Below are positions 48,865-57,286 of a DNA stretch of 64,000 nucleotides, piece after piece. The number at the start of each line of letters is the position of its first letter. Within the stretch, counting starts at the first letter, position 1. Both the position numbers and the translations under genes were made by a program. Below the pieces are notes generated by a model that was not told where the DNA came from, did not search any database, and saw only the letters and a list, made by a program, of their open reading frames with translations. The stretch covers positions 1 through 64,000 of the forward strand of contig SCRD01000020.1 of the NCBI GenBank assembly GCA_004298155.1. Reading direction: 5' to 3'. Origin of the DNA: Acidobacteriota bacterium (GTDB lineage: Bacteria; Acidobacteriota; Terriglobia; UBA7540).

Positions 48865-50118
48865 CTAATCTTTCGCAAGTTGGCCGAGCGCCCACTGGGC
48901 ATGCTCGCGGACAACAGCATCTTCGTGTCGCGCGAGTTCTTCAAGCTTCGGGATAAACCGGCGGTTCGCGGAGTTGCCCATCACGACACATAAATTGCGC
49001 AGCCAGCCGGTGTATTTCGGCCGCTTGATGGGCGAATGCGCGAAGACCCTGGGGAAATCCTCGGCGCTGACTTGCGCGAGCACCTCGATTGGAGGATTGA
49101 ACAGCGAGAACGCCAAAGGCGGTGGCTGGCCGGCACCTCCATCGCTTTTTGCATCGTCGTTGCCAGGCGAGGCTGAAAGGGTGATTTCCCTAGGCTGAAA
49201 TTCTGGTAGAGATGTGGTGGCCGCGCCGGTATGGCCTGAGCCCTTCCGGGCATTCTGGCGATTCGCCGCTGGCGGCTGGCTGCTTTCCGGGCCATTCTGA
49301 CTCCTGGCTGCTGGCTCGTGTTTCCTGTTCCAGGGACAAACGTCCTGGCAGATATCGCAGCCAAAGAGATTAGAACCGATCTTCTCCCGGTATTGTTCCG
49401 GGACGGAGCCTTTCAATTCGATATTCAGATAGGCGATGCAACGGGAAGCATCCATCACGTAAGGTTTGGTCAGCGCTCCGGTTGGGCAGGCGTCTAGGCA
49501 GCGCGTGCAGGAGCCGCAACGGTCGGGCGCGGGCAGGTCCGGTTCAATTGCCAGGCTGATGAGCACTACACCCAAGAAAAACCAGGAACCCTTTGCCGGG
49601 TTGATCAGGCAGGTGTTCTTGCCCGTCCATCCAATGCCTGAATAGCGCGCGAAAGCCCGCTCGACGATGGGCCCTGTGTCCACGTAGACGCGTGTTTCCA
49701 CGCCGGGCTCAAGATGTTCTATAGCCCTTCTTAACGCCTCCAGCCTGACGCGCATGATCTCGTGGTAATCCTGCCCCCAGGCGTACCGGGATATCCAGGC
49801 GCGAGGCACCCGAGCCTCAGCGGATGGCCCGGACGCAGACTTCAATTCATTTGCGGCGGAAAGCTCGGAGGATTCGGTTGAGTATGGTAAGGGCGCATTA
49901 TAGATGAGTCCAACACAGAGTACGGATTGAACAGAGTGCAAAACGAGCCGCGGGTCATGGCGCTTGGGATTCTCAAGATAGTGCATTTCGCCGCCGTAGC
50001 CCTGTTCAACCCATTTGCGCGCGCGTTCAAGATCTTGCCATACACCCACCGGTGCAATGCCAGCCAGATCAAATCCAAGTTCAAGGGCCTTCTGTTTCAA
50101 GAGAATTTTGAGCGACAT
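48865..50118 (-). CDS. queG: Epoxyqueuosine reductase QueG with extra linker
   Basis: A 417-residue cobalamin and iron-sulfur enzyme for the last step of queuosine synthesis in tRNA. Conserved parts: SRYAWGQDYHEIMRVRLEAL, VDTGPIVERAFARYSGIGWT-GKN, then two [4Fe-4S] motifs, CGSCTRCLDACPTGAL and FGCDICQDVCPWN. The C-terminal HEAT-like part (RPKYTGWLRNLCVVMGN, HEDAVVREHAQWALGQL) is present. Between the clusters and that part lies a Ser/Pro/Gly-rich stretch of about 70 residues (near 280-345) not usual in the family. ATG 50118 begins MSLKILLKQKALELGFD. Confidence 0.92.
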   Translation of the reverse strand: MSLKILLKQKALELGFDLAGIAPVGVWQDLERARKWVEQGYGGEMHYLENPKRHDPRLVLHSVQSVLCVGLIYNAPLPYSTESSELSAANELKSASGPSAEARVPRAWISRYAWGQDYHEIMRVRLEALRRAIEHLEPGVETRVYVDTGPIVERAFARYSGIGWTGKNTCLINPAKGSWFFLGVVLISLAIEPDLPAPDRCGSCTRCLDACPTGALTKPYVMDASRCIAYLNIELKGSVPEQYREKIGSNLFGCDICQDVCPWNRKHEPAARSQNGPESSQPPAANRQNARKGSGHTGAATTSLPEFQPREITLSASPGNDDAKSDGGAGQPPPLAFSLFNPPIEVLAQVSAEDFPRVFAHSPIKRPKYTGWLRNLCVVMGNSANRRFIPKLEELARHEDAVVREHAQWALGQLAKD

Positions 50119-50677
50119 TTCTCATTCATCATAGCGCAGCCAGCCCAGGGCCGAAGAGGCGGCGCAAAAGCCTGAAATGCACGACTTAACCCTCAATCCC
50201 TTTCCCAACCTCGAGTGAACCTGGGGGAGGCAGTTCAATCCATCTTCAATTCTGCGCCAACATATTGAATTTCAAGGAGATTGCAGGTTTCCGTTCAGGT
50301 TTCATTTATGACCATCCAACCTCATAATGCTGCATTTCGGCACAAATTGCTTAGCGGAGCTGCAGAGGTTTCTTAGAATTCAGCGTGTAAAGCTCATTAT
50401 CGGTGATTGCAGGATCGAATTGCTGGTTACCTGAGAACAGGGACCACAAAGCAATCAGGTTTTATGTCAGCGCCTTGAAGGTCCTGGGTTGCGATCAAGT
50501 CTGGATGAAGGATGCACTTGGATAGGCTTTTAAGGAGCTGCGGATGTTTCTCGGGGGTTGTTTTCGGCTGAAGGCGTAAAGCTTGCGGCTGAAAGGCCTC
50601 GCTTAACGTAAGAAGAAAGTACCACCCCTCCCAAAGGTGTGGCGGGTGGCTATTTCAATAAAGAGGAGTGCTGCATT
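50119..50677. other. Long upstream region of the radical SAM gene, no gene seen
   Basis: About 560 bp between divergent queG and the radical SAM gene. No ORF with family features. A CCACCC/GGGTGG stem near 50622-50650 lies just before the gene and may affect its translation. No known riboswitch was recognised. This is long for this compact region. Confidence 0.45.
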
Positions 50678-52759
50678 ATGCCGCGTATTCGAGGTCAGCG
50701 AGCCATGAAGTATATCGACCGGACGGTTACCGCAACCGCCGGCGCCTTATTTGATGGAATTCAGTTCTTCAACAAATTTAAACCGGCTCCGTCTTTCACG
50801 CCCAAGTGGTCTGACAAGCCGATGCTGAAATCCTGGCAGAAGACCAAGCCGAAGCTGGGCTGGCCACGAGAAACCGATTCGCTTTGTCCCGGCTGCGTGA
50901 AGGAAGCTCGTGCAGCCATCATCTCAGGGAAGAAGGATTGGAAAGACCTGCTTAACACAAAAGTGGGTGAGATCAAGGCGCAGATCATCGAGCGCAACGG
51001 CCAGGTCTGGATGGTGAAAGATTGCCCCATCCACGGCCACTTTGAAGACATCATGGCGCTCGACGTCAACTTCCTGAAGTGGATTGAGCAGAACTTTCCC
51101 GGGCGTGACATCCGGGCGCACAATGATAAGGACCTGCACAACCACGGATCCAGCACCATCCGCCATGGCCGCGGCTCCGTGCTGACCGTTGACCTGACCA
51201 ACCGCTGCAACATGATGTGCGATCCGTGCTTCATGGACGCCAACCAGGTTGGTTTTGTCCATGAGCTGAGCTGGGAAGACATTAAGGAAATTCTCGATAA
51301 CGCCACCAAGATTAAGCCACGGCGGCAGATGTCCGTGCAGTTTTCGGGCGGTGAGCCGACCATGTCGCCATACTTCATCGACGCGGTGCGCTATGCGCGG
51401 AAAATTGGGTTCAACAGCGTGCAGGCGGCGACGAATGGCATCGAGTTTGCCAAGAGCAAGGAATTCTGCAAGCAGGCGTTTGAAGCCGGTTTGCGCTACG
51501 CGTATCTCCAGTTTGACGGCATTGGCAACGACGCGAACAACCACCGCAAGGTAGGCAACCTGTTTGATGTCAAGCTGAAAGCCATTGACAACATGCACGA
51601 TGCGGGGATTGAAATTGTTCTGGTGACCACCCTGGTGAACAACGTGAACAACGACCAGGTAGGCCCCATCATCAACTTTGCCCGCGAGAACCCCAAGAAG
51701 ATCGCGTTTATCTCTTTTCAGCCTGTCTCCTTCACCGGACGCGATGAGGACATAACTCCTGAGCGGCGGGCCCGCCAGCGCTACACGCTGTCCCACATGG
51801 TGGCCGATGTCAAGAAGCAAGTTGGCATTACCGAACCTACTCGCGACTGGTTTCCACTCTCTCTGATGGGAGCCTTCGCTGATTTTGCCGACATGGTCCA
51901 TGGTCCGGATGCGCAGTGGGGTCAAGTTAGCTGTGGGTGCCACCCCAACTGCGGCGTAGGAACTGCTCTGATGATCAACAAGGAGAACAAGGAATGGGCG
52001 CCGGTGCCGCAGATCCTTAACATTCCGGGCCTGGTAAAAGACATGCAGAAAATCACCGACGCCGGCCGCGGCAAGTGGTTTTCAAACTTCATGATGGGTC
52101 TGGCGCTGCTGAAGAATTACAGGCCCTTTGGCGCGCCGCCAAGCCTGGCGCTGATCGATATCCTGAAGAAGTTTGACAAGTCGTTCGCACTGACCGGCGA
52201 AAAGCGAGCTGACAAGGTTTACGGCGCGTCAAGCCCCGACCGCACACTCGATGACACGTTGAAGCGCCGCTCGGACCCCTGGAACTTTCTGTTCATCGCC
52301 GGAATGTGGTTCCAGGACCTCTTCAACTATGACTTTCGCCGCACCGAAATGTGCATCATCCCGTATGCTACGCAGCAGGGCGAAATTTCCTTCTGCGCCT
52401 ACAATACCGGAATCGGATGGCGGAATATCATCGAGAACATGCACAAGAATGCCACGGTTGGCGAGTGGTACAAGACCCACGGCAAGCACGAAATCTACGC
52501 CGCGGGAAAGAAGGTCAACCTGACTGAGTACGATCACTCTTTGGCCATCAACGCCGAGGACGCCGCCAGGGTTCGGGAGCGCGACCACGATGTCCCGATG
52601 ACGGCGGCCGAGGAAGAGCGCGCGCGTCGCAAGGCCGAATGGGAAGCCAAGCAGGCCCGGGCGTACTACGAGGAGATGGTCCTCAAAAAGCCCAAGGTCG
52701 AACTGGTGCAGATCGGCAGTGCCAGCCAAACCGCGGACACCGAAAAGGTCCCAGTTTAG
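50678..52759 (+). CDS. Radical SAM protein, bacterial tetraether lipid synthase (Tes) homologue
   Basis: A 693-residue radical SAM enzyme. Cysteine motifs in order: CPGC (C70, C73), DCPIHG (C116), the radical SAM cluster CNMMCDPC (C177, C181, C184), CGCHPNC (C419, C421, C425), and a last domain with EMCIIPY (C559) and FCAYN (C573) within NYDFRRTEMCIIPYATQQGE. The N-terminal zinc-like part with WMVKDCPIHGHFEDIM and the C-terminal F-x-D-x-x-NYD..R.E.C pattern match what I know of tetraether synthases, which join lipid tails by C-C bonds. Acidobacteria make membrane-spanning iso-diabolic acid lipids, so this is a candidate for that step. ATG 50678 is chosen (AGAGGAG upstream); ATG 50705 is possible. 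The C-terminal tail after about 630 is charged and low in complexity. A terminator follows. Confidence 0.78.
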   Translation: MPRIRGQRAMKYIDRTVTATAGALFDGIQFFNKFKPAPSFTPKWSDKPMLKSWQKTKPKLGWPRETDSLCPGCVKEARAAIISGKKDWKDLLNTKVGEIKAQIIERNGQVWMVKDCPIHGHFEDIMALDVNFLKWIEQNFPGRDIRAHNDKDLHNHGSSTIRHGRGSVLTVDLTNRCNMMCDPCFMDANQVGFVHELSWEDIKEILDNATKIKPRRQMSVQFSGGEPTMSPYFIDAVRYARKIGFNSVQAATNGIEFAKSKEFCKQAFEAGLRYAYLQFDGIGNDANNHRKVGNLFDVKLKAIDNMHDAGIEIVLVTTLVNNVNNDQVGPIINFARENPKKIAFISFQPVSFTGRDEDITPERRARQRYTLSHMVADVKKQVGITEPTRDWFPLSLMGAFADFADMVHGPDAQWGQVSCGCHPNCGVGTALMINKENKEWAPVPQILNIPGLVKDMQKITDAGRGKWFSNFMMGLALLKNYRPFGAPPSLALIDILKKFDKSFALTGEKRADKVYGASSPDRTLDDTLKRRSDPWNFLFIAGMWFQDLFNYDFRRTEMCIIPYATQQGEISFCAYNTGIGWRNIIENMHKNATVGEWYKTHGKHEIYAAGKKVNLTEYDHSLAINAEDAARVRERDHDVPMTAAEEERARRKAEWEAKQARAYYEEMVLKKPKVELVQIGSASQTADTEKVPV

Positions 52760-52785
52760 TTTTTCCGTGGGGAGTTGAGGTCAGG

Positions 52786-52824
52786 AAGGCCGCCTGTTGG
52801 GAAGTTGGCAGGCGGCCTTTTTGT
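52786..52824 (+). terminator. Terminator after the radical SAM gene
   Basis: GGCCGCCTG (52788-52796) pairs with CAGGCGGCC (52809-52817), loop of 12, then TTTTTGTTT. A strong rho-independent terminator, so the gene is a single transcription unit separate from moaA. Confidence 0.92.
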
Positions 52825-52904
52825 TTGGTCCACGCGCACCCTGACCAGGACTTTATTTTATCGTTTGCCCCACCCCCTGTCTTGTCCCCGCTGCCAACTT
52901 GCGG

Positions 52905-53060
52905 TAGCATAGAAATGTTCTCCGAGCCTCCGGGAGCTAAAGAGCATCCAACAATCCAAGCCCCGATGGCCGGCAGGGTGTGCGGAGAAATCCGGGCGCC
53001 TCCCGTGTTTGGAAAGGGGAACAGGCCTACGCCGAACACGGGTGGGCATTTTTGTTTTTG
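52905..53060 (+). ncRNA. Candidate molybdenum-cofactor (Moco) riboswitch before moaA
   Basis: The 5' leader of moaA holds a structured stretch. TTCTCCG (52918-52924) pairs with CGGAGAA (52983-52989), enclosing GCCTCCGGGAGC and GATGGCCGGCAGGGTGTG. A second stem, CCCGTGTT (53002-53009) with AACACGGG (53035-53042), encloses GGAAAGGGGAACAGGCCTACG, which resembles the conserved core I remember for Moco RNAs. It is followed by GGGCATTTTTGTTTTTG, so the second stem could act as a terminator. Position before a cofactor-synthesis gene supports the call. I have not aligned it to the Rfam model. Confidence 0.68.
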
Positions 53061-53127
53061 TAGGCTAGGGAAGGTCCGCCCGAAATCTTCGTCAACGCCC
53101 GCAAGTATTCGTTACCGGCGGTAATCT

Positions 53128-54114
53128 ATGCTCAAGGACAGTTACGGCCGCGACATCCACGACCTGAGAATCTCCGTGACGGACCGCTGTAACTTCCGAT
53201 GCGTTTACTGCAAGTCGGCCGACCCAAAAAACTATTTTCCCCACAAGAACCTGCTCGACTGGGATGAGTTCCTGCGCCTGGCGCGCATTATGGCCGGGCT
53301 TGGCATCAGGAAAATCCGGGTGACCGGGGGTGAGCCGCTATTGCGCTCCGGCATCGTGGATTTCCTCTCGCAACTTAGCCAGGTTGACGGCATCCAGGAC
53401 CTCGCGCTGACGACCAATGGATATCTCCTGGCCGAGATGGCCTCAGACCTGGCGCGGGCGGGAGTGCGCCGTGTGAACGTGAGCATGGATTCCTCCCATC
53501 CGGAACGGTTTGCGGCTATTACGCGCACCCCAGGGTCCTATGAGCGCGTGCTGAAAGGCGTAGACGCTGCCCTCGAAGCGGGACTGAATCCGGTGAAAGT
53601 GAATGTAGTGCTGGTCCGTGGATTCAACGAGAGCGAGATAGTGGGTTTCGCGGAGCTTGCCAGGACAAAGAACCTGATTGTCCGGTTCATCGAATTCATG
53701 CCACTCGATGCCGACCACGCGTGGGACCGTTCGCTGGTGGTGACGGCGCGTGAGATTTTTGAGACAATCCATCCCGTATTTCCTCTGGCCGAAGTGCCAC
53801 GCCACGAAGCGAGCGAGACAGCCCTGCGCTATCGGTTCAAGGATGGGAAAGGGGAAATCGGCGTTGTCGCCCCCGTTTCAATTCCATTTTGCGGCCAGTG
53901 CAGCCGCATCCGCCTGACGGCTGACGGCAAGCTGAGAACGTGCCTGTTTTCGCTGGAGGAATATGACCTGGGAGGCCTGCTGCGCAACGGCGCTCCAGAC
54001 TCCGCGATCGAGGAATATATCCGATCCGTCGTTTATCGAAAAGAGCCGGGCCATCGAATCAACGAGCCGGGCTTTGTTCAGCCGTCGAGGACGATGGTTT
54101 ACATTGGAGGATAA
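53128..54114 (+). CDS. moaA: GTP 3',8-cyclase MoaA
   Basis: A 328-residue radical SAM enzyme for the first step of molybdenum cofactor synthesis. The N-terminal cluster motif is DRCNFRCVYC (CxxxCxxC); GGEPLLRSG is the SAM-binding GGEP motif. The C-terminal cluster is in FCGQCSRIRLTADGKLRTC, and the chain ends MVYIGG with the terminal GG that activates the cyclase. It stands alone without other moa genes. The candidate riboswitch upstream suggests feedback by the cofactor. The user of the cofactor may be the hydroxylase at 44676-47302. Confidence 0.94.
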   Translation: MLKDSYGRDIHDLRISVTDRCNFRCVYCKSADPKNYFPHKNLLDWDEFLRLARIMAGLGIRKIRVTGGEPLLRSGIVDFLSQLSQVDGIQDLALTTNGYLLAEMASDLARAGVRRVNVSMDSSHPERFAAITRTPGSYERVLKGVDAALEAGLNPVKVNVVLVRGFNESEIVGFAELARTKNLIVRFIEFMPLDADHAWDRSLVVTAREIFETIHPVFPLAEVPRHEASETALRYRFKDGKGEIGVVAPVSIPFCGQCSRIRLTADGKLRTCLFSLEEYDLGGLLRNGAPDSAIEEYIRSVVYRKEPGHRINEPGFVQPSRTMVYIGG

Positions 54115-54202
54115 GTGCTGCAGTGGGCCCGCGCTACGCTTTTAGGGCGCACGTTCACTCACGGGTTACAGGGTGATAAAATATGATTCGGGCGGGTTTT
54201 AT

Positions 54203-55297
54203 ATGGCGACAAGCACTTTAAGTTTATTACCGGAAAATTACGTTGAACTGTCTGAGCAGGAATTAGAGGACCGCATCGCGCAGGCCAAGGCGGCCCTGGG
54301 CCCGCGGGTGGTCATTCTCGGACATCATTATCAGCGGGACGAGGTCGTCAAATACGCGGATTACCTCGGCGATTCACTCAAGCTTTCACGCCTGGCTGCC
54401 AGCCGCAAGGAAGCTGAATATATTGTGTTTTGCGGGGTCCACTTCATGGCGGAAAGCGCGGACATCCTGCGCAACGAGCACCAGGTGGTGATTCTTCCTG
54501 ATCTGAAGGCGGGCTGCTCAATGGCAGACATGGCGGACCTGGAGCAGGTGGAGGTCTGCTGGGAAGCCGTTACCAGCGAAACGGAAGGCAAAGTTGTTCC
54601 CGTTACCTACATCAATTCCACGGCGGCCATCAAGGAGTTTGTGGGCCGTCACGGTGGCGCAGTCTGCACGTCATCCAATGCGCTGAAGGTGATGACATGG
54701 GCCTTCGAACGCGGGGAGAAGGGCCTTTTTATCCCCGATGAGCACCTGGGAAGAAACACCGCTTATCGCATGGGTATCCCCCTCGATGAGATGGCGGTGT
54801 GGGACCCGCATGAAGAAATGGGTGGGCTGACGGTTGACGAGATCCGGCATGCTCGTGTGATTCTGTGGAAAGGCCATTGTTCGGTCCACCAGCGCTTTCT
54901 GCCTCAGCACGTGGACGGCGCGCGGAAAGATTATCCGGGCATCCGGGTTATTGTCCATCCGGAATGCCGTTGGGACGTTTGCGAGATGGCTGATGAAGTT
55001 GGCTCGACGGAATTCATCATCAGGAAAATTGGGGAAGGCGGGCCGGGAAGCAAGTTTGCAGTCGGAACGGAGATCCACCTGGTGAAGCGGCTGGCGCAGG
55101 AACATCCCGACCGGTTTGTGGTCTCGTTGGACGATTGCGGGTGCCTGTGCAGTACTATGTATCGTATATCGCCGCAGCACCTGTGCTGGGTGCTTGAGAG
55201 CCTCGTCGCCGGACAGGTGGTGAGCCAGGTCCGGGTGGATGAAGAAACGCGCCGCTGGGCGCATCTGGCCCTCGACCGGATGCTGGAAATTGTGTAG
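54203..55297 (+). CDS. nadA: Quinolinate synthase
   Basis: A 364-residue [4Fe-4S] enzyme that condenses iminoaspartate with dihydroxyacetone phosphate in NAD synthesis. Visible: VILGHHYQRDEVVKYADYLG, CGVHFMAESADIL, LPDLKAGCSMADM (first cluster Cys), VHPECRWDVCEMAD (second), and DDCGCLCSTMYRISP (third). The length is typical of the longer group. ATG 54203 opens MATSTLSLLPENYVELSEQE; an upstream ATG at 54173 is possible but without a ribosome site. nadB and nadC are not in the window. Confidence 0.94.
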   Translation: MATSTLSLLPENYVELSEQELEDRIAQAKAALGPRVVILGHHYQRDEVVKYADYLGDSLKLSRLAASRKEAEYIVFCGVHFMAESADILRNEHQVVILPDLKAGCSMADMADLEQVEVCWEAVTSETEGKVVPVTYINSTAAIKEFVGRHGGAVCTSSNALKVMTWAFERGEKGLFIPDEHLGRNTAYRMGIPLDEMAVWDPHEEMGGLTVDEIRHARVILWKGHCSVHQRFLPQHVDGARKDYPGIRVIVHPECRWDVCEMADEVGSTEFIIRKIGEGGPGSKFAVGTEIHLVKRLAQEHPDRFVVSLDDCGCLCSTMYRISPQHLCWVLESLVAGQVVSQVRVDEETRRWAHLALDRMLEIV

Positions 55298-55382
55298 TGA
55301 TGCCGTGGGTGTGAAGTCTGCGGAGAAAAAAAGAGTAGACAAAAAAGGGGCCGCCGCCGATTCTAACGGTGAGCGTGCGAAT

Positions 55383-57286
<1,904 letters not shown>

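Follow-up and report, generated by a model that had tools for sequence, protein, structure and literature searches.

The window, a stretch of 64,000 nucleotides from an Acidobacteriota contig, carries on its forward strand an open reading frame that starts with the ATG at position 50678 and whose stop codon ends at 52759. The 693-residue product is referred to below as P0001. The gene is divergent from queG (48865-50118, minus strand; TIGR00276, 330.6 bits) and is followed on its own strand by moaA (53128-54114; TIGR02666, 374.4 bits). The downstream genes moaA, nadA and thiC, all on the same strand (window 53128-57286), encode three Fe-S or radical SAM cofactor-synthesis enzymes as judged by their NCBIfam names. 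Coordinates of all features are collected in Table 1.

The initial annotation had described a single transcription unit with a 5' region of some 560 bp and had taken the length of that region as a sign of separate control. The gap is indeed 559 bp long, but it lies upstream of the divergent queG as well and so need not be a leader, which leaves the case for separate control weak. An Rfam scan of the gap gave nothing credible, the single match having an E-value of 0.95 and lying far under the gathering score. A sigma-70 scan of 50000-53200 returned two matches versus 1.5 expected, none of them inside the gap. A GGCAC..TTGC stretch upstream of the gene was considered as a sigma-54 promoter and dropped, its spacing being wrong for the sigma-54 consensus and the stretch not being conserved in the related locus L077. 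Positions 50258-50355 of the intergenic region, approximately 320-420 bp ahead of the ATG, are similar in the same-genus loci L077, L078 and, in part, L080; the conserved stretch could belong either to queG or to the P0001 gene. That the gene is a single transcription unit, as first proposed, is plausible. The hairpin that precedes moaA has a z-score of -4.2, was equalled by none of 200 shuffles and has a T-rich 3' arm and tail; a terminator consensus scan did not report it.

Table 1. Features of the P0001 gene and its flanks (window coordinates; residue numbers are those of P0001 unless GDGT-MAS is named)
Feature	Position	Strand	Basis
Tes-family radical SAM gene, N-terminal-cluster-less type, 693 aa (P0001)	50678..52759	+	ORF, PDB phmmer, NCBIfam, AlphaFold2 match
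Shine-Dalgarno-like AGAGGAG	~50662..50668	+	Read directly from sequence
559-bp intergenic region common to the Tes-type gene and divergent queG	50119..50677	.	Rfam: no family
N-terminal helix, residues 7-32, ahead of the GDGT-MAS-matching part	50696..50773	+	Predicted secondary structure
Rubredoxin-like site, C70 and C73 (C9 and C12 of GDGT-MAS)	50885..50896	+	Alignment, ligand census
Rubredoxin-like site, C116 and H119 (C33 and H36 of GDGT-MAS)	51023..51034	+	Alignment, ligand census
Residues 150-163, region of the GDGT-MAS N-terminal cluster ligands (C73, C77, C80, His), all missing	51125..51166	+	Alignment, census
Radical SAM cluster motif, C177, C181, C184	51206..51229	+	Alignment, ligand census
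CGCHPNC: C425 (C338 of GDGT-MAS, C-terminal cluster) preceded by extra C419 and C421	51932..51954	+	Alignment, census
M543 (labile Met439 of GDGT-MAS)	52304..52306	+	Alignment, ligand census
C559 (C455, C-terminal cluster) to Y563 (Tyr459)	52352..52366	+	Alignment, ligand census
C573 (C470, C-terminal cluster)	52394..52396	+	Alignment, ligand census
Intrinsic-terminator-like hairpin between the Tes-type gene and moaA	52782..52823	+	-30.2 kcal/mol

P0001 had been likened from its cysteine layout to tetraether synthase (Tes), a radical SAM enzyme. A phmmer search of the PDB placed Methanocaldococcus jannaschii GDGT-MAS at the top with an E-value of 1.5e-62, followed by MoaA at 9e-8. The Pfam domains Radical_SAM and Zn_ribbon_HMPTM (PF23545) both passed their cut-offs; the latter has matches in three of 14 named control genomes, those of M. 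jannaschii, S. acidocaldarius and M. acetivorans. Profile comparison agreed in part: Tes (NF045702) was the best NCBIfam model, but its score of 318.7 bits is below the equivalog cut-off of 450 bits, and other members of the clade described below score 306-325 bits. The TrsS model (NF045646) matched residues 98-383 with 224 bits, short of its cut-off of 490. An AlphaFold2 model built from 61 aligned sequences had a pLDDT of 82 and a pTM of 0.86, with residues 164-189, which surround the radical SAM motif, modeled at low confidence. The predicted fold resembles that of the archaeal enzyme (7TOM), with a Z-score of 38.1 and a root mean square deviation of 3.0 over 467 of 498 residues (30% identity); the next family by structure, MoaA, reached a Z-score of 18.1. 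Foldseek concurred on the GDGT-MAS fold (4.3e-30). Absence of a family from the structure-match lists was not counted as evidence.

GDGT-MAS is described as holding two auxiliary [4Fe-4S] clusters and one mononuclear rubredoxin-type iron besides the CX3CX2C radical SAM motif (PMC9433317). The same source assigns C9, C12, C33 and H36 to the rubredoxin site and C73, C77, C80 and a His to the N-terminal cluster, names Met439 as a labile ligand of the C-terminal cluster, and reports that Tyr459 is conserved across 1,000 archaeal homologues. The cysteine motifs recorded at first sight are all present in P0001: CPGC (C70-C73), CPIHG (116-120), CxxxCxxC (C177/C181/C184), CGCHPNC (419-425) and NYDFRRTEMCIIPYA (550-564). 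Chance does not explain them: at each metal-ligand column the residue is conserved in 139 or all of 140 distinct relatives. These relatives come from a census of open reading frames of at least 400 residues, classed by their higher score to P0001 or to L060, an acidobacterial Tes of canonical type; after removal of identical cores the P0001 type numbered 140 proteins and the canonical type 36. A smaller earlier census, with 68 and 6 proteins respectively, gave the same picture.

Within the P0001 type the rubredoxin ligands C70, C73, C116 and H119 are kept in 139 or 140 proteins, and the radical SAM cysteines in all 140. The same complete conservation holds for C425, M543, C559 and Y563 and for Q348, S351 and R355 of the SAM-side loop, and C573 is present in 139; the roles of these chemistry-linked residues in the C-terminal cluster and the SAM-side loop are taken from PMC9433317. 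From this conservation C425, C559 and C573 would be the three C-terminal-cluster ligands, Met439 being the ligand that PMC9433317 names. Conservation of the Met and the Tyr says less about function than it might seem to, since the GDGT-MAS variants M439A, Y459F and Y459L are reported to remain active (PMC9433317).

The full set of GDGT-MAS auxiliary metal sites, as expected from the initial annotation, is not retained. Cysteine occurs at the C73, C77 and C80 positions of the N-terminal cluster in 0/140 proteins of the P0001 type, whereas the canonical type keeps all three and the His in 36/36. A count made independently of alignment agrees, with exactly one CxxxCxxC motif in each of the 140 and two in each of the 36 and in MJ0619. 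Judged from the ligand columns, the rubredoxin site and the C-terminal cluster are the only auxiliary sites for which P0001 keeps ligands. A CxCxxxC motif, formed by the extra C419 and C421 with C425, is found in 139/140 proteins of the P0001 type versus 1/36 of the canonical type. Among the canonical proteins the C421 column is Cys in 24/36 and the C419 column in 5/36, with both present only in L202.

A quick tree of 53 rows thinned from the 140, with MoaA included, placed the P0001 type on one side of a fully supported branch. This tree warned of long branches, and a careful tree was therefore made with MoaA and the trait columns left out, from 10 rows thinned from the 140 P0001-type proteins and 19 thinned from the 36 canonical ones. 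In it the P0001 type forms one clade with support of 100/100. The next fully supported split has canonical-type proteins on both sides, with L202, L203, L204 and L217 nearest to the P0001 clade. The tree, which is unrooted, is compatible with the N-terminal cluster having been lost on the stem leading to the P0001 clade. The canonical-type proteins nearest in the tree (L202 to L206 and L217) have the first or both of the extra cysteines and retain the N-terminal cluster; thus the cysteines may predate the loss of the cluster. The extra cysteines may have come first and the cluster loss later, perhaps linked to oxygen-exposed life. Taken together, sequence, predicted fold and tree support membership of P0001 in the Tes/GDGT-MAS family in the broad sense. 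As read from its sequence it is not a canonical Tes, lying under the NCBIfam cut-off and having lost the ligands of the N-terminal auxiliary [4Fe-4S] cluster.

The P0001 type is widespread in the phylum. It was found at E ≤ 1e-150 in 143 of 297 sampled genomes, 154 being without it at that threshold, and the canonical type at E ≤ 1e-110 in 34/297. In the window's class the P0001 type is present in 32/32 other sampled genomes and the canonical type in 3/32, so the P0001 type is the better suspect for tail coupling there. Within the window's family, 37/39 genomes have it at ≥68% identity, in some cases as fragments; the two exceptions are G016 and G026. Acidobacterial titles account for 78 of the best 80 named loci and include gp1 Angelobacter, gp2, Bryobacterales, Pyrinomonadaceae, Chloracidobacterium, gp5, gp18 and subdivision 13. 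The other two, L124 and L158, are titled Betaproteobacteria and Gemmatimonadetes and carry a gene that is 74-76% identical; they are probably misnamed or misbinned contigs. A tblastn search against plasmids found three haloarchaeal radical SAM proteins, which matched half of the query at 26-28% identity. Among the named carriers are SD1, SD3 and SD4 lineages, and iso-diabolic acid is reported in SD1, 3, 4 and 6 (PMC13274423); this overlap between carriers and producing subdivisions is suggestive only. Several other families hold a second paralogue (L063 to L068) of the same N-cluster-less type, approximately 50-57% identical to P0001. With paralogues at this distance, not all members of the clade need have the same function.

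No lipid gene recurs beside the P0001-type gene in 104 loci. The commonest neighbor is a queG-like gene on the opposite strand, in 16 of 104 loci, as called by a simple ORF picker that makes antisense errors in GC-rich DNA; for the most part the gene sits among unrelated genes. In two genomes of one genus of the window's family, G034 and G033, a Ger/PlsA-like gene lies 0.7 and 1.2 kb, respectively, from the P0001-type gene. Its products, of 1194 residues (G034) and 1181 residues (G033), have two BcrAD_BadFG (PF01869) stretches and DUF2229, and the validated glycerol ester reductase Ger is described with two such activation domains (PMC13274423). The pairing is rare: three loci among 105 of at least 8 kb, all from these two genomes. 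In a comparison of 2,000 bases, the start of the G033 contig showed no difference from Acidobacteria subdivision 13 bacterium RH2 MAG17b. The same contig holds an elb-like set comprising a DAG kinase, an NAD epimerase, a Lar_N-like frame (named by its likeness to L229), a HAD protein, a PlsY-type acyltransferase and a 1011-residue ACP/AMP-ligase/acyltransferase protein. Canonical Tes genes are also found close by, on the same strand as the P0001-type gene at distances of ~0.5 kb (G303), 3.6 kb (G159) and 5.9 kb (G111), in all three same-class genomes that hold both types.

The genome of the window has an elb-like ether-lipid gene set of its own on contig C7 (L229:5181-16145). It consists of a CDP-alcohol phosphatidyltransferase, an acyl reductase (531 aa), an ACP/AMP-ligase (931 aa), a PlsY-type acyltransferase, a HAD protein, Lar_N, an NAD epimerase and a DAG kinase; its likening to M. 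xanthus elbB to elbE follows the domains described in PMC9131029 and not a sequence comparison. Ger/PlsA was sought in the same genome and rejected: the three PF01869 matches lie in frames of 353, 369 and 520 residues, too short for Ger, and a DUF2229 search of this genome gave no match. At E ≤ 1e-100, 23/297 genomes of the phylum encode a protein closely related to the elb-like ligase. Among the 39 genomes of the window's family the ligase occurs in 24 and canonical Tes in 8, never together: canonical Tes is found in 0/24 ligase carriers versus 8/15 of the others (Fisher 1e-4), or 0/13 versus 4/5 by genus (0.0016), both tests being uncorrected for relatedness. The two may represent alternative ether-lipid routes. 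S. usitatus is described with two Tes homologues and no ElbD (PMC10087280).

Our preferred explanation, which we hold to be probable, is that P0001 is a membrane-spanning-lipid synthase of the Tes/GDGT-MAS family that joins two iso-C15 (phospho)lipid tails into iso-diabolic acid chains; activity and substrate are inferred. P0001 remains, as first proposed, a strong candidate for the tail-to-tail coupling of lipids, with the activity itself assigned by analogy with GDGT-MAS. In its favor are the family, the predicted fold, the retained ligands, the distribution and the adjacency to Ger-like and canonical Tes genes. Against it count the Tes score under the cut-off, the absent N-terminal cluster ligands, the 154 genomes without the type, the rarity of the Ger-like linkage, the lack of a recurrent lipid neighbor and the second paralogue in some genomes.

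GDGT-MAS is reported to couple two sp3 carbons with two SAM molecules, the first radical being stored at a C-terminal-cluster sulfur (PMC9433317). By analogy, the radical SAM cluster of P0001 would generate a 5'-deoxyadenosyl radical, which would abstract a hydrogen atom from one isopropyl-ended tail at its terminal methyl group. The resulting carbon radical would be parked on one of the sulfurs in the C-terminal [4Fe-4S] cluster (C425, C559 and C573, with labile M543, by alignment). A second SAM would then activate the other tail to attack the parked carbon and form the C-C bond. End-to-end joining in this manner would yield 13,16-dimethyl-octacosanedioyl (iso-diabolic acid) chains. The iso-C15 tail, whose end is said to resemble the phytanyl end structurally (PMC8941075), is the likely substrate in Acidobacteriota, in ester or ether lipids. 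Iron-sulfur occupancy of P0001, and its working without the N-terminal cluster, are presumed in this scheme. It is possible, and we suggest tentatively, that the distinct clade as a whole is the general iso-diabolic acid synthase of Acidobacteriota, joining two unactivated sp3 carbons with no N-terminal [4Fe-4S] cluster and with an extra Cys pair beside the C-terminal one.

P0001 might be the acidobacterial version of Mss, known from Bacillota and Thermotogota, and no separate kind. Mss, to which P0001 is likened by description, has models that are said to share the Tes catalytic architecture (PMC13274423), and Mss homologues are reported in 11/97 acidobacterial MAGs from the Black Sea (PMC11868695). 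However, Thermotoga maritima makes diabolic acids (PMC8788747), and its genome, among our controls, has no match to the HMPTM zinc ribbon; we consider the equation with Mss unlikely. It is a question of naming more than of function and is compatible with our preferred explanation. A narrower assignment is that of a brGDGT-specific synthase that couples preformed iso-C15 diethers like archaeal Tes rather than ester-bound tails. A diether route with Tes homologues is proposed for Solibacter usitatus (PMC10087280), and the genome of the window has its elb-like ether-lipid set. Nevertheless, coupling seems commoner than the ether route when the presence of the type throughout the class is set against that of the elb-like ligase in the phylum, and Mss is reportedly unselective for ester or ether (PMC13274423). 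Restriction to diethers is on this evidence distinctly improbable.

A different radical reaction, such as methylation or cross-linking of membrane lipids, or a reaction on a pterin as first annotated for MJ0619, appears very doubtful. The InterPro family name is Methyltransferase_Class_D, the earliest role proposed for MJ0619 was methanopterin methylation (PMC9433317), and a change of reaction can accompany ligand loss. The pterin role, on the other hand, is described as uncorroborated and the GDGT-MAS pocket as hydrophobic (PMC9433317), and in the P0001 type the C-terminal cluster that stores the radical, along with M543 and Y563, is fixed.

The iso-diabolic acid synthase assignment matters in that brGDGTs and iso-diabolic acid underlie widely used soil and lake palaeothermometers; in the literature examined we met no experimental proof of an acidobacterial tail-coupling enzyme. 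Acidobacterial Tes homologues as candidates for brGDGT synthesis were already published by 2022 (PMC8941075; also PMC10087280). The former reports 456 bacterial homologues, including one from Edaphobacter aggregans (32% identity, 4e-61) that by its numbers looks like the P0001 type, and the latter proposes one or both Solibacter homologues as brGDGT makers. A Tes clade devoid of the N-terminal cluster was not mentioned in the main texts, chiefly from open-access journals, that our search covered. The role of the remaining GDGT-MAS metallocofactors is stated to be unknown (PMC9433317), and the clade offers a natural deletion of one of them.

Comparison with the known systems places P0001 closest to GDGT-MAS, the archaeal Tes (MJ0619; PDB 7TOL and 7TOM), which couples isopropyl tail ends. 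The two share the fold, the rubredoxin-like site, the radical SAM motif, the C-terminal cluster cysteines, the labile Met and the nearby Tyr. P0001 differs in having no N-terminal [4Fe-4S] ligands, in the extra C419/C421, in a rubredoxin loop of 43 residues rather than 21 between the C12 and C33 positions, and in a longer stretch ahead of the labile Met. It also adds a C-terminal extension and an N-terminal helix beyond the matched part; the start of the helix has the highest hydrophobic moment in the protein, and the 7tom match begins at residue 62. The canonical-type acidobacterial Tes proteins belong to the same family and phylum, are 32-37% identical to P0001 and are sometimes encoded less than 6 kb from a gene of its type, but they pass the Tes cut-off (563.6 bits for L060) and keep both CxxxCxxC motifs. 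TrsS is alike in the radical SAM part, its match ending ahead of the C-terminal cluster region. Mss of Bacillota and Thermotogota is similar by description, in its proposed reaction on fatty-acyl tails and its reported Tes-like architecture (PMC13274423).
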